Source: Rhodobacterales bacterium HKCCE3408 (GTDB taxonomy: Bacteria > Pseudomonadota > Alphaproteobacteria > Rhodobacterales > Rhodobacteraceae). Taken from it: 64,000 bases of DNA. The notes under the pieces were generated by a model. That model saw nothing but the letters and a program-made list of their open reading frames with translations. It was not told where the DNA came from and searched no databases. The DNA is taken from assembly GCA_015689705.1 (NCBI GenBank), contig WVSN01000003.1:124001-188000 (forward strand), in the 5' to 3' direction. Both the position numbers and the translations under genes were made by a program. Shown piece after piece: positions 25,167 to 35,789 of the stretch. Each line of letters opens with the position of its first letter. Positions within the stretch are counted from its first letter, which is position 1.

Positions 25167-25216
25167 TTGGCTCCGGCGGTAGGGATCGAACCTACGACCA
25201 ATTGATTAACAGTCAA
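25167..25216. repeat. Left att repeat (tRNA-Asn 3' fragment)
   Basis: A 50-bp copy of the 3' half of tRNA-Asn, from the anticodon region to the CCA end on the minus strand, identical to 35714-35763. After 25216 the sequence diverges and the 5' half of the tRNA is missing, so this is a displaced attachment-site remnant and not a functional tRNA. Confidence 0.93.
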
Positions 25217-25293
25217 AGTCACGGGGCCAACGTGGTCCAACGAGTCAGAACGCCGAACTTTGGAAATACCTCTATTTTACTGAAAAGAGACCT

Positions 25294-25364
25294 GATGGTT
25301 GGCAACCATCGTAACGTCAGGTAACGTCGCCAGACGGTAAAATTTGTTACCCTGATGTTACCCC
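25294..25364. promoter_or_regulatory. Repeat-rich attachment-site arm, left
   Basis: The segment holds a hairpin (GATGGTT-GGC-AACCATC, 25294-25310), two direct copies of GTAACGTC starting at 25311 and 25321 (10-bp period), and two copies of GTTACCC starting at 25346 and 25357. The GTTACCC pair recurs inside the right end at 35628-35650. Paired short repeats just inside both ends fit integrase arm-type or excisionase binding sites; the protein that binds them is inferred. Confidence 0.6.
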
Positions 25365-25379
25365 AAGAGGCCGAACTGC

Positions 25380-25574
25380 ATGAAAACCTCTGTTTTGACC
25401 ATACTCGCATTCTCAGTTGCTCTTGCCCTTAGTGGATGCGGTGAGAGCACCGACGAGGCTTATGATCGAGGCTACGATGACGGCTACAACGCTGGCCTCG
25501 ATGAGATGTGTCGCGAGATCAGAAGCACAGCGCCCAATCTAATCAGTCGCTTCAATCAGTGCAGAGGCTCTTAA
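25380..25574 (+). CDS. Small lipoprotein
   Basis: A 64-residue protein with a signal peptide and lipobox LSGC (lipidated Cys near residue 20), followed by an acidic, repetitive YDRGYDDGYNAG segment and two further cysteines. It should be anchored in the inner or outer membrane facing the periplasm. It lies between the left attachment arm and the integrase gene, 2 bp before the integrase start, so it is probably co-expressed with it. Small prophage lipoproteins at such sites sometimes alter phage entry; nothing in the sequence proves that here. Confidence 0.75.
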   Translation: MKTSVLTILAFSVALALSGCGESTDEAYDRGYDDGYNAGLDEMCREIRSTAPNLISRFNQCRGS

Positions 25575-25576
25575 GT

Positions 25577-26758
25577 ATGGGAAAGGCTCTCACAACCGTC
25601 GGAGTAGAGGCCGCCAAACCCGACCCCAGCAAGAGGATCGAGCGGCCAGACCCGGCTCTCTCCGGCCTGTACCTCATAATCCAGCCATCCGGCGCAAAGT
25701 CTTGGGCTCTACGGTACCGTTGGCGGGGCAAGCCGAAGAAATTGACGCTCGGACGCTGGCCCGTTATGGGCGTTGCGGAAGCGCGAAAGGCTGCCACAGA
25801 GGCTCTTGGGACCCTCACCGAGGGAACTGACCCCGGCGCAGTCAAGAAGGCCGCAGAGCTGGCCGACCGCGATAACGTTGCATCACTCATTGAGACTTTT
25901 TCAGCTCGACACCTGTCGAAGCTCAAGAGCGGCGACCACGCCAGGCAATTCCTCGATCGGTTCGTCGTCGCAGCTTGGGGCGATAGAAAAGTCGGCGAGA
26001 TCAAGCGGCGGGACGTGATCGAACTCCTTGATGAGATCGCCGACAGCGGGCGGGGCACCACAGCCAACAGGGTGTTGGCTCACACACGGAAGTTCTTCAA
26101 CTGGTGCGTAGAGCGCGACGTGATCGAGATAGCGCCCACAACTGGAGTTAAGCCTCCGCATCGGGAGCAGAGCCGCGCGCGGGTCCTGAGTGACGAAGAA
26201 ATCAAGCGCTTCTGGAAGGCCTGCGACGCGGTCGGTTATCCATGGGGCCACCTTGGCAAGCTGCTCCTGCTGACTGGCCAGAGGCTAGGCGAGTTGCAGG
26301 GCATGACGCGCGACGAGATCGAGGGCGACCTGTGGCGCCTCGAAGGTGATCGGACGAAGAACGGTCGCGCGCATGACGTGCCGCTCTCAGAGGCGGCACA
26401 GGCCGTCCTAGACGACTGCCCGAAGCTCGGCACCTACGTCTTATCAATGTCTGGCGCCGCGCCGCTGAAGGGCAATCACAGGGGTAGGGGCTACATCGCC
26501 GCCGCTATGGGTGAGGCGGAGCACTGGACCTTCCACGACCTCCGAAGGACCGCCGCGACCGGCATGGCCCGGATCGGGGTTCCGGTACGGATTACCGAGG
26601 CATGCCTGAACCACGTCAGCGGTACCGGCGGCGGGATCGTCGCGGTCTATCAGCGGCACGATTACCTAGTCGAAAAGCGACAGGCGCTCGAAGCGTGGGG
26701 CCGCCTTGTGCTCGACTTGATCGAAGGGCAGGGCAAGGTGATGCAGCTTCAAGGCTGA
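25577..26758 (+). CDS. int: Tyrosine recombinase (integrase) of the element
   Basis: A 393-residue phage/P4-type integrase. The N-terminal part has the DUF4102-like arm-binding module (SGLYLIIQPSGAKSWALRYR, KKLTLGRWP), followed by a SAM-like core-binding domain and the catalytic domain with R236 (TGQRLGEL), K261, H320-x-x-R323 (FHDLRR), H346 (LNHVSG) and nucleophile Y358. The ATG at 25577 lies 2 bp after the lipoprotein stop. It should integrate the element into tRNA-Asn and, with an excision factor, remove it. Unusually, the gene lies at the end far from the intact tRNA. Confidence 0.93.
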   Translation: MGKALTTVGVEAAKPDPSKRIERPDPALSGLYLIIQPSGAKSWALRYRWRGKPKKLTLGRWPVMGVAEARKAATEALGTLTEGTDPGAVKKAAELADRDNVASLIETFSARHLSKLKSGDHARQFLDRFVVAAWGDRKVGEIKRRDVIELLDEIADSGRGTTANRVLAHTRKFFNWCVERDVIEIAPTTGVKPPHREQSRARVLSDEEIKRFWKACDAVGYPWGHLGKLLLLTGQRLGELQGMTRDEIEGDLWRLEGDRTKNGRAHDVPLSEAAQAVLDDCPKLGTYVLSMSGAAPLKGNHRGRGYIAAAMGEAEHWTFHDLRRTAATGMARIGVPVRITEACLNHVSGTGGGIVAVYQRHDYLVEKRQALEAWGRLVLDLIEGQGKVMQLQG

Positions 26759-26824
26759 AACAATTTCGTGACAACGGACACTGTCCCCGTTTTGGTCTGT
26801 AGGCGAGGGGGTTTATTTGTGTTT

Positions 26825-26840
26825 TGTGTAACGTTACACA
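26825..26840. promoter_or_regulatory. 16-bp perfect palindrome upstream of alpA-like gene
   Basis: TGTGTAACGTTACACA is a perfect 16-bp palindrome in an AT-rich 177-bp gap between the integrase and the AlpA-like gene. It contains GTAACG, the same core as the repeats beside the left attachment site. It is a good candidate operator for a dimeric regulator controlling the switch of the element. Confidence 0.6.
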
Positions 26841-26935
26841 GTAAGCCTTTGGAAATAATAGAAAAAAGGTTGCAAGGCGTATCGGTTGGCGCGTATTCCA
26901 TGACGTACAGCGTTTTAACAACGGAGACCTGCACC

Positions 26936-27133
26936 ATGACCCCCGATCCCGAAGCCCGCCTCAATTCCCACGAGGTCCGCGCTCTCTGCGGCGGCGTCAG
27001 CGACATGTGGCTCTGGCGCCGAATGAACGAAGAGGGGGGCACCTTCCCCCGCCCGACCGTCATCGGTCGCCGCCGTTTCTGGCGCCGGGGTGACGTGCTC
27101 GCGTGGTTCGAAGCACAAAATGAGGCCGCTTGA
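26936..27133 (+). CDS. AlpA-like MerR-type HTH regulator / excision factor
   Basis: A 65-residue winged-helix protein: LNSHEVRALCGGVSDMWLWRR, then FPRPTVIGRRRFWRRGDVLAWFEA. The F-P-x-P-x-x-I-x-x-R-x-x-W-x-x-x-D-V/I-x-x-W signature is that of AlpA/phage transcriptional regulators, which activate integrase or early genes and can act as excisionases. The ATG at 26936 is preferred because GGAGA precedes it and the longer open frame upstream lacks similarity. It is followed by a 149-bp gap with no gene. Confidence 0.85.
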   Translation: MTPDPEARLNSHEVRALCGGVSDMWLWRRMNEEGGTFPRPTVIGRRRFWRRGDVLAWFEAQNEAA

Positions 27134-27282
27134 ACAAATAGCCGCCCCGGGCGGACCCGAGGCGGCAAGAAAAGACGACGGGCCCACGAAACCCGATGAA
27201 GATCACCAGCGGACGGGGTGAGGAAACCGCCGCAAGCTAGACACTGAGCCCCCTCGAAAATTGGAAGAGGCCACAAGGTCTC

Positions 27283-27942
27283 GTGTGTGAGGTAATGTCT
27301 AGCAACAAAATACCCGAAATTCAACGACCCGCGATCTTCACGCGCCTGTCGCCGCGCCCGGCCATTTGGCAGCTCGCAGCAGACGAGGAGAATTGGCTCC
27401 TCTTCGCAGTCAGCACCCCGAACCAGAAGAAGAACGGCAAGCGCGACAAGCGCCCCGTCGTGAGCGATCGGCCCTACATCATCTGCGACAGGAAGAAGGC
27501 CGCGACCATGACCCTCGACGTGGCCGTGAAGCGCCTGCGGTTCTTCCGAGAGGAGGGCGATCTCACCCGGTGGAACCGCAAACACGAGGAGCGGCGGCGA
27601 GAGCGGCTGAGCGAACTGGAGAAGCCGCCGCTCATCCCCTTCGACTTCGCAGGTCTGGCGCTCGGATACTTCCCCCGGGAAGGCTCGGCCCTGATCGGCC
27701 TCGACTTCGACGAGGTTGTCGTCGACGGGCGGATCGAGGACTTCGAGCTCGCGGCCTTGGTCGAGGACAGCCCGGCTTACGTCGAGATCAGTACGTCGGG
27801 CTCGGGGGTCCGCGTGGTCATGCCGCGCCGGGAGGGCGACGAGACGCACCACGCAGGAGAACGGAACGGCGTCGGGCTCTTCGTGAGCTCGCGCGGGGCC
27901 GCCTTTGCGATCACAGGCAACGAGGTGAAGGGCAATGGGTAA
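27283..27942 (+). CDS. Primase-polymerase (AEP-type) N-terminal module
   Basis: A 219-residue protein resembling the catalytic N-terminal domain of plasmid and phage primase-polymerases. The metal motif is LIGLDFDE (D141 and D143), followed by YVEISTSGSGVRVVM (residues 167-180), which corresponds to the S-G-x-G segment, and a closing VSSRGAAFAITGNE stretch equivalent to the usual RFFTVTG. The canonical histidine after S-G-x-G is not evident. The GTG at 27283 has AAGG 4 bases upstream; ATG at 27295 is the alternative. The PriCT and helicase parts usually fused to this domain are encoded by the next two overlapping genes. Confidence 0.75.
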   Translation: MCEVMSSNKIPEIQRPAIFTRLSPRPAIWQLAADEENWLLFAVSTPNQKKNGKRDKRPVVSDRPYIICDRKKAATMTLDVAVKRLRFFREEGDLTRWNRKHEERRRERLSELEKPPLIPFDFAGLALGYFPREGSALIGLDFDEVVVDGRIEDFELAALVEDSPAYVEISTSGSGVRVVMPRREGDETHHAGERNGVGLFVSSRGAAFAITGNEVKGNG

Positions 27943-28279
27943 CGCACGCGACGATCGGCTCTTTCGGCTCGTGCTCGATCGCCACGGGGCGGCGCAGGAC
28001 CACGAGCGCCGGGATAGCGGCGAGATCGAGGATCAGGTGCTCGAACACGGGCGCATCGAGGTTGAGACCTTTCGCGAGATCGTCGCGCACGTCGAGAACG
28101 ACGAGCGGTTCGACGAAGTCGGCGACTGGATCGGCATGGTGCGGGCCGCCAAGGAATATTTCGAGATCGTCGATCCTGACCGGCTCGAAGAGGTGCGAGA
28201 GATCGTCGAGGCGTGGTCCGAGACATGGACCGGCGGCGACCACGATCCCGACAAATTCAACGAGGTTTGGGGCAGATGA
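27935..28279 (+). CDS. PriCT-like linker protein of split primase
   Basis: A 114-residue acidic protein. The centre and end (FDEVGDWIGMVRAAKEYF, then EAWSETWTGGDHDPDKFNEVWGR) match the PriCT_2 pattern, in which D-x-W-I-x-V-G-M is followed by a W-S-x-x-S-x-K-Y-D-P segment and a final W. In most relatives this domain joins primase and helicase in one chain. Here it is free-standing: the gene overlaps the primase gene by 8 bp and the helicase gene by ATGA. The family call is by pattern only. Confidence 0.6.
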   Translation: MGNARDDRLFRLVLDRHGAAQDHERRDSGEIEDQVLEHGRIEVETFREIVAHVENDERFDEVGDWIGMVRAAKEYFEIVDPDRLEEVREIVEAWSETWTGGDHDPDKFNEVWGR

Positions 28280-29745
28280 AAACAGGCATGGGAACTTGGA
28301 TACACCACGCGAAAGAGAAGGGATGGACTTCCCCCGGGGAGGCCCGGATCGAGCGGTGGGAACAATGGCCCGATCCGCCGATCGAGCTGGAAACAGTCGA
28401 GGACTTTCAAGCCCGGGTGGTCATCATCGGGCGGCGGTTCTTCGATCGGCTGATGCACGATTTTATCTCGAGCGTAGATGAACTCGGCACGCTGATCGCG
28501 ACCGTGAAATTCCCGAAGCCGAAGACCGCCAAAACTCTGACCGCCGCAATACGGCACGATCAGGCTCGCAAAAAGGCGCAGCGGTTCACGGCGGCGGCCT
28601 TCATGCCCCGTGAGGGTCGCGAGGTGCTTGACCGGATGCCGAACGCCGCCGGGCACCTCAGGCACGCTCCTGGCGCGCGGCTCTTCAACCTGTGGCAGCC
28701 CCCGCGCATACCGGAAGGGCCGCAGCCGGTGCCCGACGTATGGCTCGCCAAAGTGCGTGAGATATGCCCGGACGATCCCGAATATGTTCTCGACTGGATG
28801 GCGATAAAGGTGCAGGGCCACAAGATCGGGGCGGCGATCGTGCTCGGTGGCACCCCCGGGTCGGGCAAGGACCTGATCCTAGGGCCGATCAAGCGGGGCC
28901 TTTCGCCCCATGTGGCCGAGACCGATATCCGGCAGCTCGATGGCGATTTCGCAGGTGACGTGCTCGCCGAGAAAACGCTTGTCGTGGTGCAGGAGGCCCG
29001 AGGGGGCGGCGGGGCTCGCGATCTCAGAGAGCGCGAGGCCGCCTTTCGGCTCCTGATCGCGATCGGCGAGCCCTTCGTCGTGAACCGCAAGAACCGCCCG
29101 CAAACCGCGATCCCGAACGTCGCCGACTACGTGTTCACCATGAACGAAATCGACGGTCTGCACATACCGCCAGACGATCGGCGCTATGCCGTTTTTTGGA
29201 CCGACGCCCCGCAAATGACCGAGGCCGACTATGCGGCCTATACGGCGGCCTATTCGGCGCAGGGGGGCGATGACGCGGTGATCGCCTACCTCGCCCGCCG
29301 CCGGGTGAAACTGAAGCCCGGGGCACCCGCCCCGATGACGCCGGCCAAGCTCCTCGCGCAACAGTCGAGCCTTACCATGCACGCTCGGAAGATCGCCCCC
29401 GAGGTGCGGAAGCGCATTACGCCTCTGGCGTGGGTTACGGTCGACGCGCTGAAAGCCGAGCTCTGGACCGCTTGGGAGGGTGAACCCGACCGCCTCGACA
29501 ATGAGCTCGGCGCGATCCTGAAGGCGCTTGGGTGGGTAAAATGCCCGCACTGGCGCGACGGTCGCGCAGAGGTCGCCGGGACCCGGTTCACGGTGTGGCA
29601 AAATCCGACGGACCCCCCTCGACCCCGTGAGGCGATCCGGCAGGCGTTAAAGGCCGAGAAGACCTCCGAGGCCCGAATAAGGGCACTTCCGACGGACCAC
29701 CCCGGACCACCGACGGAGGGGAGTCCGTCGATGATAATAGAATGA
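28276..29745 (+). CDS. SF3/D5-like replicative helicase (DUF5906 type)
   Basis: A 489-residue ATPase. The first residues (TWIHHAKEKGW) match the T-I-G-T-L-F-H-x-A-K-x-x-G-W tail that follows PriCT in fused primases, so the split lies inside a normally continuous protein. Walker A is GGTPGSGKD (191-199), Walker B is KTLVVVQEA (E240), and VFTMNEIDGLHIPPDDRRY provides the sensor/arginine region. It should unwind the element's origin. The ATG is fixed by the ATGA overlap. Its 3' end contains two copies of the iteron-like repeat. Confidence 0.85.
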   Translation: MKTGMGTWIHHAKEKGWTSPGEARIERWEQWPDPPIELETVEDFQARVVIIGRRFFDRLMHDFISSVDELGTLIATVKFPKPKTAKTLTAAIRHDQARKKAQRFTAAAFMPREGREVLDRMPNAAGHLRHAPGARLFNLWQPPRIPEGPQPVPDVWLAKVREICPDDPEYVLDWMAIKVQGHKIGAAIVLGGTPGSGKDLILGPIKRGLSPHVAETDIRQLDGDFAGDVLAEKTLVVVQEARGGGGARDLREREAAFRLLIAIGEPFVVNRKNRPQTAIPNVADYVFTMNEIDGLHIPPDDRRYAVFWTDAPQMTEADYAAYTAAYSAQGGDDAVIAYLARRRVKLKPGAPAPMTPAKLLAQQSSLTMHARKIAPEVRKRITPLAWVTVDALKAELWTAWEGEPDRLDNELGAILKALGWVKCPHWRDGRAEVAGTRFTVWQNPTDPPRPREAIRQALKAEKTSEARIRALPTDHPGPPTEGSPSMIIE

Positions 29746-29861
29746 TTTCCGTACCCTGCAGCATTTCCGACGGACCGACGGACCATTCCCAGAAACCCAG
29801 AACTAGAGGGGCATAAGACGTGCTCACGGCGACATAGGGCAATGGTCCGGGGTCCGTCGGA
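29604..29861. repeat. Iteron-like repeat cluster, candidate replication origin
   Basis: TCCGACGGACC is present at 29604-29614, 29688-29698 and 29766-29776, its 10-bp core again at 29775-29784, and it is inverted at 29851-29861. Partial copies occur at 29710-29717 and, inverted, at 29724-29730. Copies at 29763-29776 and 29851-29864 form a 14-bp perfect inverted repeat. A short AT-rich stretch (29731-29750) lies between them. The cluster straddles the helicase stop codon and the following 148-bp gap, the position where P4-like satellites keep origin repeats. Confidence 0.65.
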
Positions 29862-29920
29862 AATCACGAAACCGGCCTCCCGGTGGGGGAGTAATGGAAC
29901 CCCGGAAAGGACCCGAAACC

Positions 29921-30190
29921 ATGGACGATCGAACGCACAAAAAACCTAGCGAAGCCGAGAGCGAGGCGGCCCTCGCCGCCTATCACGACCACTGGTGCGA
30001 GCGCCTCGAACACACAGACCCGCGTGCCGTCTTGGCGATCCTCTACGCGATCGCCCGAACCATCGCCAAGACGCAAGGCGGGGTGCAGGCGATCGACGAG
30101 CTGATCGAGGCTGCCGAGGCGATCGCCCGGGAGCACATGGAAGACCCGCCCAATCGCCCACTCGGCTCGAAAGGCCGAAAAATCCACTGA
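29921..30190 (+). CDS. Hypothetical helical protein of the element
   Basis: An 89-residue soluble protein, mostly helical (AALAAYHDHWCERLEHTDPRA, IDELIEAAEAIAREHM), with no family I can name. The ATG at 29921 has AAAGGA 9 bases upstream; an in-frame ATG at 29894 is possible. It sits between the replication genes and the capsid genes. A regulatory or head-assembly role is possible by position only. Confidence 0.6.
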   Translation: MDDRTHKKPSEAESEAALAAYHDHWCERLEHTDPRAVLAILYAIARTIAKTQGGVQAIDELIEAAEAIAREHMEDPPNRPLGSKGRKIH

Positions 30191-30201
30191 GGAGAAAAAT
30201 C

Positions 30202-30378
30202 ATGCCAGCACAACAAACCGACACGCTGACCTTGGCCGAAGACCTCGGCCAGGAGATCGACGCGAAGGCCCGGGAACTCGCCGTTCTGATCGGCAACGGC
30301 AAGGCCGCCGAGGAGCTCGTCGAGATCGCCAAGAACGTCCGAGGCGGGGGCGTCGGCTCCTATTCGTTCAAGCGTTGA
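30202..30378 (+). CDS. Hypothetical 58-residue protein of the element
   Basis: A short gene with AGGAG 7 bases before the ATG. The product is helical and acidic for 40 residues (LTLAEDLGQEIDAKARELAVL), followed by a glycine-rich basic tail (GGGVGSYSFKR). It starts 11 bp after the previous stop and ends 15 bp before the protease frame, so it is probably co-transcribed with the capsid genes. No homologous family is recognised. Confidence 0.6.
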   Translation: MPAQQTDTLTLAEDLGQEIDAKARELAVLIGNGKAAEELVEIAKNVRGGGVGSYSFKR

Positions 30379-30393
30379 CCCCGTGGGCCGCCC

Positions 30394-31185
30394 GTGAGAT
30401 TCTCTGCGCACGCCTCGGTGAGTTCTCGAACCGCCGTGACGACGCAGTCAGCCCCCGGGCGACCCGCAGTCAGCGATTTTTCGAAACCGCACGAACTGAC
30501 GGGGCGCAATGTGTCTGACGTTCTCCATCATGGTCTAGCCCTCGAAACCCGCGCCACTGGCGATGGGATCGTCGAGGGTGTCGCGTCGCCGTTCGGGTCC
30601 ACGCCCGACAGCTATGGCGACGTGGTCGCACGGGGGGCCTTCTCGAAGTCGATCGAGAGCCGCCGCCCGGTGTTTCTTTGGGCGCATGATCCGAGCCGGA
30701 TCGTGGGCAAATGGGAGCACCTCGAAGAGCGCGCCGACGGGCTTCACGTCCGGGGCCGCATCAACCTCAAGACCGAGACAGGTCGCGAGGCCTTCGAGCA
30801 CCTTAAGGCCGGAGACGTCGACGGTCTCTCGATCGGCTTCAACGCCAAGCGCGCGACAGTCGACCGCCAGACCGGGCACCGCACCCTGACCGAGATCGAC
30901 CTCCGCGAGATCAGCCTCGTGGCGATGCCCGCAGCCGAAACGGCCCGGGTGTCCTCGGTCAAATCCATCGCCAGCCCGGAAGAGCTGCGCGACCTTCTGC
31001 GCGAGGCGGGCTTGCCGCACCGTGCTTCCGACAAGATCGCCCGAGCCGGGTGGCACGTCGGGCTGAAGGGCATGGACCCCGAAGAGTTCGAGCGATCGCT
31101 CCGACAGGCCGCCAAGAAATCGGCCGATCGGCGCAATCTGAAAACCCTCGCCGAGCTCCTCGGCGAAGCAGCGAAAGGACGCTGA
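30394..31185 (+). CDS. HK97-type prohead maturation protease
   Basis: A 263-residue S78-type serine protease. The core starts at ETRATGDGIVEGVASPFG, with the catalytic histidine in FLWAHDP (H98) and the nucleophile in DGLSIGF (S146), followed by LREISLVAMPA. The C-terminal 90 residues are charged and helical and may act as a scaffold. It would cleave the capsid protein during head assembly. The frame opens with GTG at 30394, but a GTG at 30511 fits the usual family N-terminus better. The capsid gene follows after 3 bp, as in tailed phages; the portal and terminase genes that normally precede it are absent. Confidence 0.88.
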   Translation: MRFSAHASVSSRTAVTTQSAPGRPAVSDFSKPHELTGRNVSDVLHHGLALETRATGDGIVEGVASPFGSTPDSYGDVVARGAFSKSIESRRPVFLWAHDPSRIVGKWEHLEERADGLHVRGRINLKTETGREAFEHLKAGDVDGLSIGFNAKRATVDRQTGHRTLTEIDLREISLVAMPAAETARVSSVKSIASPEELRDLLREAGLPHRASDKIARAGWHVGLKGMDPEEFERSLRQAAKKSADRRNLKTLAELLGEAAKGR

Positions 31186-31188
31186 CCA

Positions 31189-32391
31189 ATGGAAATCGAA
31201 GAAATCAAGCGCAGCCTCGCGCAGATCAATGAACGCGCCGGGATCGCCGAGGAGGTCCGCGCCGACCTCGACGATCTCTCGAAGAAATTCGAGGCGTTCG
31301 AGCTGAAGCAGGCCCGCGCCGCCGCTCGGGGCATGCCTTCCGGCGAGGCTCCCGCGACGCCCGAGCAGATCGAGCACCGCGACCTCTTCATGCGCTGGAT
31401 GAAGAACCCGCACGCCTCGTCGATCCGGGCCGAGCTCGAAAGCATCGAGAGCAAGGCCGCCGACGGTCTCACGGACGCCGCTGGCGGCGTATTAATACCC
31501 GAGCTCCTCTCCGACCGCATCCTGACCCGCATCAAGCAGGTGAGCCCCATGCGACGCCTCGTGAACGCGCAGGCGATCGGATCGAGCGACTTCAAGGTCC
31601 TGCGCTCCGATAATGCCGCATCAAGCGGTTGGGTCGGCGAGGGCTCGACCCGCAACGAGACCGACACCCCTGGCTTCGAGGGTATCGCGCTTTCCGGCGG
31701 AACGGTCTACGCGCTCATGACCGCGACCGAAGAGATCATGCAGGACAGCAAGTATGATCTTCAGGGCCACCTGATCGAGACTATCGCGACCGAGATGGCG
31801 AAGACCGAGGGCGTGGCGATCATCTCCGGCAACGGCACAAACAAGCCGCGCGGACTCCTCAACGTGACCCCGGAGAGCGCCGAAGATGGCGCTTCGCCCG
31901 CCCGCACCGAAGGGGCGCTCCGCTACCTGCCGACCGGAGTTGCCGGAGGCTTCGGGGCGCTCGACACGGGCTCGCCCTACTTCAACCCCGCCGACGTGCT
32001 CGTTGACGTGGTCTATGACCTGAAGAGCGAGCATCGCGTCGGGGCGACGTGGTGCATGAACTCAGCCACCGCCGCCGTGGTGCGTAAGTTCCGCGACGCC
32101 GATGGCCGCTGGCTTTGGTCTGACGGGATCGCCATGGGGCAGCCCCCGTCACTCCTCGGCTACCCGGTGGAGATCGCCGAGGATTGGCCGGATATCGGGG
32201 CGAACGCGCACCCGATCGCCTTCGGCAACTTCGGTGCCGCCTACTTCCTCGGCGATCGCTCAGGCCTGCGGATGACGCTCGACGACAACATCACGACCCC
32301 GGGCAAAATCCGTTGGTATGTGCGCAAGCGCGTCTTTGGTGCCGTGGTCGATGACGAGGCCGTGCGCGTCATCAAGTGCGCGACGTCGTGA
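31189..32391 (+). CDS. HK97-fold major capsid protein
   Basis: A 400-residue capsid protein of normal length. The first 80 residues are a charged coiled-coil delta region, removed by the protease in relatives. The HK97 core starts near DAAGGVLIPELLSDRI and continues through SSGWVGEGSTRNETD, ATEEIMQDSKYDL, GNGTNKPRGLLN, TWCMNSATAAVVRKFRD and LLGYPVEIAEDWPD, ending with a strand-rich A domain. AAAGGA precedes the ATG. An intact capsid protein next to its protease is the strongest sign that the element can build, or remodel, a virion shell. Confidence 0.93.
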   Translation: MEIEEIKRSLAQINERAGIAEEVRADLDDLSKKFEAFELKQARAAARGMPSGEAPATPEQIEHRDLFMRWMKNPHASSIRAELESIESKAADGLTDAAGGVLIPELLSDRILTRIKQVSPMRRLVNAQAIGSSDFKVLRSDNAASSGWVGEGSTRNETDTPGFEGIALSGGTVYALMTATEEIMQDSKYDLQGHLIETIATEMAKTEGVAIISGNGTNKPRGLLNVTPESAEDGASPARTEGALRYLPTGVAGGFGALDTGSPYFNPADVLVDVVYDLKSEHRVGATWCMNSATAAVVRKFRDADGRWLWSDGIAMGQPPSLLGYPVEIAEDWPDIGANAHPIAFGNFGAAYFLGDRSGLRMTLDDNITTPGKIRWYVRKRVFGAVVDDEAVRVIKCATS

Positions 32392-32469
32392 TCTGAGATC
32401 ACTTGCTACGGAAAAAATCCAACGTGACCGTCGAAGCAGTCAGTGCATTAGAAGCGAGGCTTGCCGGTG

Positions 32470-32501
32470 CGCCCTCTCCTGCCAGCGGTAGGGAGAGGGC
32501 G
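32470..32501. terminator. Hairpin terminator between capsid gene and opposing block
   Basis: A 10-bp perfect GC-rich stem (32470-32479 and 32492-32501) with a 12-nt loop lies between the convergent capsid gene and the first opposing gene. The T-rich side is weak. It probably separates the two transcription units. Confidence 0.65.
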
Positions 32502-32507
32502 TTAGCT

Positions 32508-33122
32508 TCATTCTGTTAAGCGGGGGAACTCCAAGATGGTCACAATAAGCAAAATTAAGAGGAAGAGGAGAAGTCCGGCAAGCACAGCGGGGCCAATCGC
32601 CACGCACAGATAAGCAATGAATAGCGCTGGCTCCCAAAGTTCTGTGGCCCATCGAATAAAGCCGATCTGCCAGTCGGGCATACTGGCGAGAACCTGCTCG
32701 TCGGGGATAATGGGAAGGCCAAAATACGTCCACACCAGTGCGGCCACCAACAACGGGTAGGATAGCAAAATGCCGGCAGTGACCATCAAAGCCCAACTCT
32801 TGTATCGACGCTCCCAGACCTTTACTCGGCGTGCGAATTCCAGGCCCTTGAGAACGTCGAGCCGCTGTCTGGCCGACAGCTCGAGGATCTCCTCTTCCGA
32901 AGTTTGAATATCTACGGTCTGAGCCAGCAATCGAAGAAAGAATGGTTCGATAGCGAGGTCATCAGATTTGCCTTTTGAGAGCATCTCATGGGCCTGTCTT
33001 AACAACGAAGGTGACTGCTCTTGGAGTTCAAAGAGCAGCTTGAGGTCAACTTCCAGACCGACATCGTTGGCCATGACCCAAACTGTATACGCATCCGGTT
33101 CTTGGTGGTGCAGAGCCATCAT
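32508..33122 (-). CDS. Hypothetical membrane protein of the element (cargo block)
   Basis: A protein of up to 204 residues. The first 100 are soluble and helical; membrane segments follow at about 109-135 (ALMVTAGILLSYPLLVAALVW) and 163-200 (long, probably two passes, ending in LLFLLILLIVTIL). No family is recognised. Composition is lower in GC than the capsid genes. It is the most distal gene of a six-gene minus-strand block. The start is uncertain: ATG at 33122, 33119 or 33074. Confidence 0.65.
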   Translation of the reverse strand: MMALHHQEPDAYTVWVMANDVGLEVDLKLLFELQEQSPSLLRQAHEMLSKGKSDDLAIEPFFLRLLAQTVDIQTSEEEILELSARQRLDVLKGLEFARRVKVWERRYKSWALMVTAGILLSYPLLVAALVWTYFGLPIIPDEQVLASMPDWQIGFIRWATELWEPALFIAYLCVAIGPAVLAGLLLFLLILLIVTILEFPRLTE

Positions 33123-33315
33123 CCAAATCTATCGCACCGTACTTTGCCTGCAAGGCTGCCAAGAGGCGCTAGTCCCGAAGAGGTCATGTGCGTCCGGGGG
33201 GCGGGGGCCGAAGTTGGGAACAAGAGCTTCAGGAACCGGCGGGTGGCAGCATTTTTCTCCGCTTGTCACAATACGAAAGAAAACCGGGGCTCGTTGCTAT
33301 AGGGAGCTGGGTGGG

Positions 33316-33831
33316 TCAGCTTATCCTGTCGCGGGCGGCCTCCAGCTCAGTAAGCACCCCGTCTAAGATCTCGCCATTTTGCCCCATACGTTCGACAGCG
33401 AATTTCAAAGTGTCGAGCGAAATGCTGAAGTTGTATTCTGTCTCTTCCTCAGCTTCCATGGCGAACATGGCGTTGATCTCTTCGATCGCCAACACTGCAT
33501 TGAGAACGCTGCGAGACAGCACCGGTCCAAGTAAACCGATTTCTGTGGAAACGGCGTCGAAGTGCCTGAGCAGCATCCGAGGGACAACTACTTGGTCGGT
33601 AACTTTGTCTGCGAAGTCTGATATGCGCTTGAAACTCGAGCGATAGATCGCAATTTCCGCCTCTACTGCTGTAATGACTGCAAGTCGCCGATGCTGCATT
33701 GCGTCGACACGCGCGCGCCGTTCGATGCGCGCGTTAACGTTGAGCGTGATTATCACGCCCGCAAATCCAAACAACCCAACGATGAGTGATTGGAAGTCTC
33801 GAACGAAATCGAGCCATGATGTTATCTGCAT
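33316..33831 (-). CDS. Hypothetical single-pass membrane protein
   Basis: A 171-residue protein with one membrane helix near residues 12-32 (SLIVGLFGFAGVIITLNV), followed by a basic stop-transfer segment (ARIERRARVDAM) and a long helical, partly acidic cytoplasmic region. ATG at 33831 places the helix close to the N-terminus; a frame extension to 33867 exists. No family is recognised. The layout, one anchor plus a coiled cytoplasmic part, resembles that of the gene at 35113-35610. A 193-bp gap with no gene separates it from the next gene downstream. Confidence 0.65.
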   Translation of the reverse strand: MQITSWLDFVRDFQSLIVGLFGFAGVIITLNVNARIERRARVDAMQHRRLAVITAVEAEIAIYRSSFKRISDFADKVTDQVVVPRMLLRHFDAVSTEIGLLGPVLSRSVLNAVLAIEEINAMFAMEAEEETEYNFSISLDTLKFAVERMGQNGEILDGVLTELEAARDRIS

Positions 33832-33930
33832 TTGATGATCTATCCGGACTAGCTTCCCGCAAAACAATCTGCTCGCAGTCCCTCCAGCGGATTGTTCGAT
33901 TTGTGCTGGGTATTACTGTACGAATTGATC

Positions 33931-34425
33931 CTAGTAGAGAGTATTCGGATTTGCATCGAGAGGTGGTTCCTCCCGGAACCTGAAAAGGTGTGTGCGGTCC
34001 TTTTGGCAAGTCTTGTAGTACGCGTCGCCCGTTATGAAATTTATCGTCTTTTCGTTCCGTAGGCAGACAGGGCAAACGTAGTGTTCGGGCTCGCCTTTGG
34101 CCGCGTCGGCCCGCAATCTGTAAACCATGTCACCGAGCGGTGTCTGGACGAGTTCATAACGCGACCTTTCGAGTTCGAATTCTTCAAGTTGCCGCACTTC
34201 TTGTCGGAGCACTACCATCGCGTCGCTTAGCTGAGCGTTCATTAGGTTCGCTGCCGTTAGTTGCGCTGCGAGCTCACTAACCACTCGTTCTAGTTCAGAG
34301 GCTTCCGGAGGTTTGCCCTTTCGCAGCATACCCTGGATTTTCTGTATCGTTTCGGTCGCTTTGCCGGTCGCGTTCACCGCCGTTGAAGCGAGGCCTACGA
34401 CCTCCGAGATGCTGGTTAGGTCCAT
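33931..34425 (-). CDS. Coiled-coil protein with C-terminal zinc ribbon
   Basis: A 164-residue protein: residues 40-90 form a coiled coil, then RYELVQTPLGDMVYRLR and a zinc-ribbon-like end with C118-x-x-C121 and C140. This matches a recurrent accessory-genome pattern in which an ERYEL-x-x-x-x-x-G-x-x-V-Y-x-L segment precedes a CP-x-C zinc ribbon. The fourth ligand is not obvious (H146 is possible). The biochemical role of such proteins is unknown; they are frequent on mobile elements. Confidence 0.65.
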   Translation of the reverse strand: MDLTSISEVVGLASTAVNATGKATETIQKIQGMLRKGKPPEASELERVVSELAAQLTAANLMNAQLSDAMVVLRQEVRQLEEFELERSRYELVQTPLGDMVYRLRADAAKGEPEHYVCPVCLRNEKTINFITGDAYYKTCQKDRTHLFRFREEPPLDANPNTLY

Positions 34426-34435
34426 ACTAGCTCCG

Positions 34436-34816
34436 CTATCTGCAAGTGCCCCAGTAAGCGATGCTGCCAGCTATGGCGAGCAGCGGCTTGTCAGATCCGT
34501 CGACATACTCAAGAACTTCGTGATAGACGACATTCCCGCCACCGCCGGTATCGGCGATGACCTTGAACGCCCAATCCTCTGATCCGCGGTTCAATAAAGT
34601 CACGTCGCTTATGCCGCTGTTGCCGATGACCGGATGGATAACTAGCCCCGTGTCGCGATCGATTGCTACCGAGGTTTCCATCGCCTCATCACCAAGCCAT
34701 GCTATGGAGTCGATGGCCGTGAAAAATCCCTCAATCTCACAGATGTACGAGTAGGGACCCGCATCCGACGCGCATGGAACTGTGACGATCAGCGCACAAG
34801 CCGGCAAAGCTCTCAT
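34436..34816 (-). CDS. Hypothetical secreted protein
   Basis: A 126-residue protein with a signal peptide (MRALPACALIVTVPCASDAG) and a strand-rich mature part containing two cysteines, one early (YSYICEIEG) and one near the end (YWGTCR), which could form a disulfide in the periplasm. The ATG overlaps the stop of the upstream gene (TGATG), so the two secreted proteins are coupled. No family is recognised. Confidence 0.65.
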   Translation of the reverse strand: MRALPACALIVTVPCASDAGPYSYICEIEGFFTAIDSIAWLGDEAMETSVAIDRDTGLVIHPVIGNSGISDVTLLNRGSEDWAFKVIADTGGGGNVVYHEVLEYVDGSDKPLLAIAGSIAYWGTCR

Positions 34817-35085
34817 CACTGATCCCACTGCGCGCGAAAGCGTCCCGGCTCACACCAATAGCGAACAGTTACCCCAGGTTGATTTTGGAACAAATGCGCT
34901 GCGATCTGGCAGTTCTCGGCGTTGTATCTCTCCCCGTCATCGGCATCGAAAGTCGCCACATGGACCCGCATCGTTTGGTCCAAAACCGAGTTGCGATAGA
35001 GGGTGGATACGTCGCGCTCAGCGCTTTGTGCCAACAAAACCGTTGGGGTGAACGTTGCAGCGACGATCCAAGCCAAAATCCGCAT
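34816..35085 (-). CDS. Hypothetical small secreted protein
   Basis: An 89-residue protein with a signal peptide (MRILAWIVAATFTPTVLLAQ) and a mature part of about 70 residues with two cysteines (NCQIAAHLFQ and YWCEPGRF). That segment, followed by a Gln/Pro-rich stretch and YWCEPG, looks like small periplasmic proteins found in Rhodobacterales, but I cannot assign a family. It is coupled to the next secreted-protein gene by a TGATG overlap. Confidence 0.65.
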   Translation of the reverse strand: MRILAWIVAATFTPTVLLAQSAERDVSTLYRNSVLDQTMRVHVATFDADDGERYNAENCQIAAHLFQNQPGVTVRYWCEPGRFRAQWDQ

Positions 35086-35112
35086 TCACATCCCTCGAGT
35101 GACTTACCTCGC

Positions 35113-35610
35113 TCAACGCTGATGTTCAGCCATCATTTCGTCAACCCGGCGTTCGTGATCATTGACACCTTGGACCACCAAATCGACGGTGCGGTCCAAA
35201 AAATCGACGTTCACTATCCACTTTTCCAGCCGGTCACCGGAAAGGGAGTCGAGGCTTTCGAGGTCCTCTACAAACTTGTGAAATTTTCTTAGCGCCTCGT
35301 CGTGTTCGCGCTTTAGTTCGGCCACGGCCAGTTTCTCTACTTCGTGGGCGCCTGAGCGGAGAAGTCCGCGAAAATTCATCATTGCGGCCCATTTCGCTGG
35401 TAGCGCGTCGATACGTTGGTCGAGTTTTTCGAATTTGAAGGCGACCTTAGACATGGTGAGCTTAACGCCCCTGCGTCGATCGCGTGCGTCCACTTCGTCT
35501 GACCGCTCTTGGCTACGATTGGCGACGCGATAACTGAGCCCGGCCACAACAAGAGATAACGCCGAGATAATCAACGAGGCAACCCAAGCCCAGTTTTCCA
35601 GCGTGCTCAC
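35113..35610 (-). CDS. Single-pass membrane coiled-coil protein
   Basis: A 165-residue protein with an N-terminal membrane helix (WVASLIISALSLVVAGLSY, about residues 9-27), a basic stretch and a long helical region rich in charged residues up to the C-terminus. The start is GTG at 35610. It is the first gene of the minus-strand block and lies about 100 bp inside the right attachment repeat, so the block's promoter should be between 35611 and 35713. No family is recognised. Confidence 0.65.
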   Translation of the reverse strand: MSTLENWAWVASLIISALSLVVAGLSYRVANRSQERSDEVDARDRRRGVKLTMSKVAFKFEKLDQRIDALPAKWAAMMNFRGLLRSGAHEVEKLAVAELKREHDEALRKFHKFVEDLESLDSLSGDRLEKWIVNVDFLDRTVDLVVQGVNDHERRVDEMMAEHQR

Positions 35611-35627
35611 GAGAATTCACTCCCGGA

Positions 35628-35650
35628 TTGTTACCCCTATCGTTACCCCC
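35628..35650. promoter_or_regulatory. Attachment-site arm repeats, right
   Basis: Two copies of GTTACCCC, starting at 35630 and 35642, mirror the GTTACCC pair at 25346-25364 near the other end, in the same orientation. The shared motif inside both ends suggests integrase arm-binding sites. Overlap with the promoter of the minus-strand block is possible. Confidence 0.6.
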
Positions 35651-35713
35651 GCGGCAGAAGAACGAGAGCGCGCCCGCGCTGCTCACGACATGATGTTGGT
35701 TTTGCGGGAATTT

Positions 35714-35763
35714 TTGGCTCCGGCGGTAGGGATCGAACCTACGACCAATTGATTAACAGTCAA
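35714..35763. repeat. Right att repeat (within tRNA-Asn)
   Basis: The 50-bp sequence identical to 25167-25216. Here it forms the 3' half of the intact tRNA-Asn, so integration rebuilt a functional tRNA from element-borne sequence. Confidence 0.93.
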
Positions 35764-35789
35764 CTGCTCTACCGCTGAGCTACGCCGGA
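35715..35789 (-). tRNA. tRNA-Asn(GTT), integration target
   Basis: On the minus strand the sequence has acceptor stem TCCGGCG/CGCCGGA, a D arm, an anticodon stem TTGAC with loop carrying GTT, a T arm with GGTTCGATCC, discriminator G and an encoded CCA. The 5' half is host sequence and the 3' half is the att repeat. The promoter side (above 35790) is undisturbed. Confidence 0.95.

Follow-up and report, generated by a model that had tools for sequence, protein, structure and literature searches.

A probable PICI-like satellite at a tRNA-Asn gene of a Rhodobacterales bacterium encodes its own major capsid protein and prohead protease

Introduction

Known phage satellites reshape a head stolen from a helper phage, add one capsid homologue to it, or bring a complete head together with packaging genes. 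Capsid-forming phage-inducible chromosomal islands (cf-PICIs) encode a major capsid protein (MCP), protease, portal, connectors, the small and large terminase subunits (TerS and TerL) and HNH, and need tails only (PMC10690885, PMC12409344). The Streptomyces satellites MulchRoom and MiniFlayer encode TerS, TerL, portal, scaffold and adaptor, which amounts to a full head module, and have no obvious replicase (PMC10690885). SaPIbov5 encodes the capsid homologue Ccm, which is 24% identical to the capsid protein of its helper, occupies only the pentamers and forms no shells alone; the island has no protease (PMC8569155). The Gram-negative PICI EcCICFT073 travels in helper capsids of full size, its packaging relying on the cos sites of its helper (PMC6092414), and the marine phage-inducible chromosomal minimalist islands (PICMIs) are reported to have no capsid-remodelling genes (PMC10803314). 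Here we analyse an element, named E1, in a 64,000-nucleotide stretch of the genome of Rhodobacterales bacterium HKCCE3408 (contig WVSN01000003.1, positions 124,001 to 188,000; hereafter the window). An initial annotation of the window proposed that E1 is a satellite making its own capsid shell and borrowing portal, packaging and tail from a helper.

Results

E1 occupies positions 25167-35763 of the window as a 10.6-kb integrative element flanked by a perfect 50-bp direct repeat, the right copy of which is the 3' end of a tRNA-Asn gene. The same 50 bp are found, identical, in the tRNA-Asn of relatives without the element; in these the tRNA-Asn is intact and followed by the same right flank, and no synteny of the left flank was seen within 1.5 kb. 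From the left attachment (att) site, the genes are ordered as integrase, AlpA-like regulator, primase-helicase, two small proteins, prohead protease, MCP and six minus-strand genes. By its att repeats and gene content E1 is an intact, complete element. It combines an integrase and a specific attachment site with an AlpA-type regulator and a primase/replication module, and lacks the genes for a complete infectious particle, as PICI-like satellites do. The repeat and the Pfam and PHROG matches (Table 1) bear out the core genes listed initially; the list had to be amended in that the replication protein corresponds to three overlapping open reading frames (ORFs), and it had left the six minus-strand genes unmentioned.

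The prohead protease and MCP genes were correctly described as intact, both having strong family matches, over the full profile for the MCP (Table 1). In an alignment with four related proteases, the E1 protease retains H98, S146 (within GLSIGF) and a conserved E, likely the catalytic residues, as expected for S78 peptidases. The AF2 (AlphaFold2) model of the MCP (pLDDT 74) has a helical, delta-like N-terminus. Its best solved folds are the MCP of RcGTA, a gene transfer agent (GTA) (6tb9, 1e-24), and that of the cf-PICI EcCI2 (9gyi, 2e-20); the latter matches the capsid profile at 7e-74 and is absent from our MCP tree. Among the MCPs found in phages that bear a portal or TerL, none exceeds about 43% identity to the E1 MCP, the nearest phages having been located by short patterns.

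PHROGs were searched with every E1 ORF of at least 40 amino acids on either strand, 95 in all. None of these was recognised as encoding a portal, terminase, connector or tail protein, in agreement with the initial annotation, which had seen nothing else of a virion module; no hidden portal or terminase came to light. The PHROG families matched (25 of 26 listed) were integrase, primase, protease, major head or without a named function; the listed matches name none of the P4-like sid/psu/delta/alpha set, for which no dedicated search was made. The host genome contains exactly two PF05065 capsid genes, one in E1 and one in a second element, E2. It has no match anywhere to the PF04860 portal or to PF03354, a TerL model that does not cover all TerL types. 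As the host lacks any HK97-type capsid beyond these two and neither model is matched, a helper must come from outside.

The capsid gene of E2 lies about 110 kb from that of E1 on the same contig. E2 (C23 262167-272302) is 10.1 kb long and is bounded by a 53-bp perfect repeat derived from tRNA-Leu. Its integrase, helix-turn-helix/AlpA-like gene, primase, small protein, protease and MCP follow the same order as in E1. The MCPs of both elements are full length and 48% identical, and their proteases are 55% identical; the block of protease and MCP genes shows 67% DNA identity, and the integrases differ. Full-length genes at such divergence suggest that both have been kept by selection. No portal, terminase or tail family was present among the strongest 25 of the 43 PHROG families matched in E2 and in the related element L155. 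E2 also contains a 56-bp stretch (C23:262358-262413, or L047:10359-10414) situated some 190 bp from the att copy at tRNA-Leu. This stretch shares 89% identity with the E1 att at tRNA-Asn, and both are oriented alike with respect to their elements; an integrase swap may have left it behind as a relic attP.

Relatives were sought by an MCP alignment-based search over one genome per GTDB species. Nine were found, eight of which have a neighbouring integrase and lack a neighbouring TerL and portal. They include elements of Defluviimonas (L149), Thermohalobaculum (L151), Roseovarius (L152), Marimonas (L153), Rhodobacteraceae HLUCCO18 (L154), Aestuariivirga (L155) and the gammaproteobacterium Pseudomarimonas (L150); the family of capsid satellites thus extends beyond Rhodobacterales. 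Boundary repeats derived from tRNA genes were identified in L152 (44 bp, tRNA-His), L153 (57 bp, tRNA-Thr), L155 (49 bp, tRNA-Gln), L149 (18 bp, tRNA-Arg) and L150 (18 bp, tRNA-Leu), and complete elements span about 8.5-10.6 kb. The same type of element, whose absence elsewhere was to count against a satellite, is therefore present in other genomes. PF04860 is not matched genome-wide in four hosts (that of the window, Marimonas, Pseudomarimonas and Thermohalobaculum); in the host genomes of the other relatives this portal is present and located outside the element. PF03354, with its incomplete coverage of TerL types, was not found in 8 of 10 host genomes. Across the host family, MCP matches occurred in 239 of 298 genomes, and those examined were mostly GTA or prophage capsids with a neighbouring portal or TerL.

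A further relative, L231, is an IMG/VR metagenome contig of 8,908 bp with a 141-bp exact terminal repeat, which closes it as an 8,767-bp circle. It carries integrase, AlpA, helicase, protease and MCP genes and no other recognised virion gene. This shows that an element with only protease and MCP occurs on its own, in circular or concatemeric form, which does not imply packaging. Two other relatives hold additional sequences. Beside the complete satellite of Marimonas lutisalis, L153:1-4300 holds sequences repeated from the far end of that satellite, among them a truncated TerS. They mark where a second element, in tandem or decayed, ends at this tRNA-Thr. In the gammaproteobacterial element, an OLD/GajA-like ATPase-TOPRIM gene (L150:10856-12991) is probably defence cargo.

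We computed two maximum-likelihood MCP trees, one of which included 49 phage and GTA rows, the nearest found, picked by short patterns. In this tree a clade of 15 rows, made up of 13 satellites together with L275 and L330 as probable satellites, separates from the 49 rows at 100/99 support, and no carrier of TerL or portal was found among its members within the sequence covered, some contigs being partial. The other tree groups 13 satellites at 100/97. The search thus returned no full-length prophage with the same MCP, a finding that would have spoken for a deletion remnant. GTA MCPs form a clade separate from those of the satellites. The capsids of the satellites L069, L156, L051, L234 and L237 fall on other branches, so that the arrangement has apparently evolved repeatedly. 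L051:8099-17318 (genome G153), for example, is an island with integrase, AlpA, a DUF3987 helicase, MCP and two TerS-like genes. The IMG/VR islands L236, L238 and L243 have the cf-PICI layout MCP-protease-portal-connectors-TerS-TerL, and their MCPs belong to a remote clade; an integrase and a primase accompany this layout in all three and in L240 and L241, whose MCP gene is interrupted.

The MCP is the sole virion gene common to all clade members, protease, TerS and tape measure being variable. A protease is encoded by E1, E2, L149, L155, L231 and the probable member L275, and a TerS by L150, L151, L153, L226 and L330. In L149, L152, L154 and L228 a tape-measure gene stands right after the MCP without other recognised tail genes, and in L229 it is accompanied by a gp10-like gene. 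Outside the clade, a tape measure also follows the MCP in L069 and in L156, the latter again with a gp10-like gene. Such a satellite-encoded protein could set tail length. Protease plus MCP is thus an accurate description of the head module of E1 and not of a fixed set, as relatives may do without the protease or have TerS or a tape-measure protein in addition. In L154, an 80-amino-acid ORF before the MCP (L154:9549-9791) corresponds to the C-terminal tail of the protease, the catalytic domain being gone. The five columns invariant in all six aligned sequences fall in this tail of about 80 amino acids, which suggests a role beyond catalysis.

The three replication ORFs of E1 (27283-29745) match, in order, a single 796-amino-acid ORF of E2. 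The ATG of the second overlaps the stop of the first (ATGGGTAA), and the second and third are joined by an ATGA overlap. With such overlaps at each joint, a true split of the primase is more plausible than a frameshift or sequencing error, and the parts look like translationally coupled subunits and not like decay; a sequencing error is possible. The related element L049, to whose AlpA the E1 regulator is linked by phmmer, has a better AlpA match than the E1 protein itself. The six minus-strand genes fill the last 3 kb of E1. This cargo end has a GC content of 0.54, unlike the rest of the element, and PADLOC detected no defence genes in it.

Table 1. Features of E1 (window positions) and tape-measure regions of related elements (positions in the respective sequence)
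Feature	Position	Strand	Evidence
att repeat, left (integrase-proximal) copy, 50 bp	25167-25216	.	100% identity (50/50) to 35714-35763
Small ORF, 64 aa, possibly lipoprotein	25380-25574	+	ORF call; no Pfam match
Tyrosine integrase	25508-26758	+	PF13356, PF22022, PF00589; PHROG 1, E 3e-63; HDLRRT box in sequence
AlpA-like regulator/excisionase	26768-27133	+	PHROG 66, E 9e-4; phmmer 1e-18 to AlpA of L049
Primase N-terminal part (ORF 1/3)	27283-27942	+	PHROG 13901 DNA primase/helicase, 8.5e-12; about 49% identity to E2 primase residues 4-200
Primase middle part (ORF 2/3)	27935-28279	+	65% identity to E2 primase residues 203-315
Helicase domain (ORF 3/3; longest ORF from 28213)	28276-29745	+	PF19263 DUF5906, 2e-10; PHROG 1156 DNA primase, 3e-14
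Small protein, 98 aa	29894-30190	+	phmmer 3e-27 to E2 148-aa protein; no Pfam or PHROG family
Small ORF, 58 aa	30202-30378	+	DNA-level conservation in E2 (67% identical block); no Pfam match above cut-off, last 44 aa
S78 prohead protease	30394-31185	+	PF04586, 2e-28; alignment with four related proteases
MCP, HK97 fold	31189-32391	+	PF05065, 8e-68, full profile 1-280/280
Cargo ORF, putative membrane protein	32508-33122	-	Hydrophobic stretches; no Pfam or PADLOC match
Cargo ORF	33316-33867	-	No Pfam match above cut-off, no PADLOC match
Cargo ORF, coiled coil and cysteine motif	33931-34425	-	No Pfam match above cut-off, no PADLOC match
Cargo ORF	34436-34828	-	No Pfam match above cut-off, no PADLOC match
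Cargo ORF	34816-35085	-	No Pfam match above cut-off, no PADLOC match
Cargo ORF, N-terminal hydrophobic segment and coiled coil	35113-35610	-	DUF7310 weak, below cut-off; no PADLOC match
att repeat, right copy, 50 bp	35714-35763	.	Within tRNA-Asn 35715-35789(-)
Tape-measure region, L149	11351-14416
Tape-measure region, L152	11678-13462
Tape-measure region, L154	11264-13417
Tape-measure region, L156	11282-13630
Tape-measure region, L069	6237-8135
Tape-measure region, L228	1355-3064

Discussion

The absence of hidden portal or terminase genes, the failure to find a full-length prophage with the same capsid and the recurrence of related elements with conserved boundaries give good support to the satellite initially proposed. 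We consider it likely that E1 is an intact PICI-like satellite at tRNA-Asn whose own MCP forms or dominates a small shell built on a helper portal. In the cycle that we propose, an infecting helper phage would trigger the AlpA/integrase module, upon which E1 would excise and replicate by means of its own primase-helicase. Protease and MCP would be expressed late, and the MCP, matured by the protease of E1, would form or dominate a small-head shell suited to a 10-kb genome. This shell would be assembled on the helper portal, filled by the helper TerL and joined to a helper tail. From the gene content we infer that E1 depends on a helper and has a small capsid. Its MCP may build the entire shell or share it with the MCP of the helper; the possession of a protease provides a mild argument in favour of a self-sufficient shell.

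Several observations weigh against this reading. L150-L153 have no protease, which indicates that self-maturation is not universal in the clade. The E1 primase is divided among three ORFs, and several clade members (L226, L228, L229 and L330) are represented by partial contigs. Nor is a helper known; by the models searched, the host genome contains none. Finally, E1 has no TerS and no recognised cos or pac site, which leaves its packaging specificity unexplained.

The E1 MCP might instead redirect the assembly of its helper as Ccm does, co-assembling with the helper MCP, for instance as pentamers, and forcing small heads that package E1. We regard this as a real possibility, at somewhat less than even chances: the precedent is established (PMC8569155), and many clade members have an MCP without protease, like SaPIbov5. 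However, E1, E2, L149, L155 and L231 do encode a protease, and the E1 MCP is full length, with its delta-like N-terminus and its distance from the phage MCPs found. The protease bears also on the proposal that E1 serves only interference or host defence, its MCP poisoning helper assembly while E1 itself moves in ordinary helper heads. Satellites often interfere with their helpers, and SaPIbov5 Ccm blocks phage reproduction (PMC6092414). Yet a protease that stays beside the MCP while the sequences diverge by about 50% points to productive assembly, and related elements add TerS or tape measure, that is, packaging and assembly functions. We thus think this proposal unlikely.

The order protease-MCP, as in phages, and the deviating GC content of the cargo end could be taken as signs of a former tailed prophage in which both genes survived by chance. 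This is very improbable and in practice rejected: the att repeats are perfect, the core genes are unbroken save for the cleanly split primase, and the same layout recurs in E2 and in similarly sized elements that miss the same genes. Remnant genes, irregular losses and full-length relatives with the same MCP, which mark defective prophages, were not found for E1. A domesticated function, as a GTA or an encapsulin-like compartment, is hardly credible, even if the RcGTA MCP is the closest solved fold and GTAs are common in the host family. GTA MCPs form their own clade, the MCP gene lies inside a mobile element with integrase, att and primase, and host genomes vary in carrying the element; both the GTA and the encapsulin interpretations were rejected on account of the separate clade and the mobile-element context.

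As for the lineage as a whole, we tentatively suggest that it carries only those virion parts that set size: always the shell protein, often the protease, sometimes the tape measure and at most TerS, the portal, terminase motor, connectors and rest of the tail being stolen. If this is true, hybrid particles would be made on helper machinery, with the shell, and in some members the tail length, defined by the satellite. With this lineage it becomes possible to test what fits the MCP of a satellite to the portal of its helper, what determines small heads and by which steps satellites lose or gain head genes. For automatic annotation it also matters that a protease gene and a capsid gene standing alone together in a bacterial genome are not necessarily the debris of a prophage.

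Among described systems, EcCICFT073 resembles E1 in its integrase, AlpA, primase and specific att site (PMC6092414), MulchRoom and MiniFlayer in having their own capsid proteins (PMC10690885), and PICMIs (PMC10803314) and the marine VEIMEs (virion-encapsidated integrative mobile elements; PMC11389934) in being small and integrative. E1 shares with cf-PICIs the integrase, the AlpA-type or other regulator, the primase, an HK97-fold MCP together with a head maturation protease, and the presumed dependence on helper tails, and the EcCI2 MCP is among the nearest solved folds. In contrast to cf-PICIs, it has no portal, connectors, TerS, TerL or HNH, and lacking portal, connectors and terminase it cannot be classed as one. 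With SaPIbov5 (PMC8569155, PMC6092414) it has in common, by gene content, a satellite MCP homologue in an island without portal or TerL; by this analogy the E1 MCP may be used on the head machinery of a helper. The two differ in their hosts and in that Ccm has no partner protease, whereas E1 encodes one of the PF04586 family. In the open-access literature searched we found neither satellites with MCP and tape measure nor alphaproteobacterial capsid-only satellites; absence is not proven by this, and such reduced elements may have been described before. The set of capsid genes is unusual, as the initial annotation noted, but rather than the new type that it envisaged, E1 is better called a variant among PICI-like satellites carrying capsid genes. 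Its lineage is intermediate, having a shell protein with or without protease that presumably works on a foreign portal, and is best read as standing between SaPIbov5, with a capsid homologue only, and the cf-PICIs, with a complete head and packaging genes.

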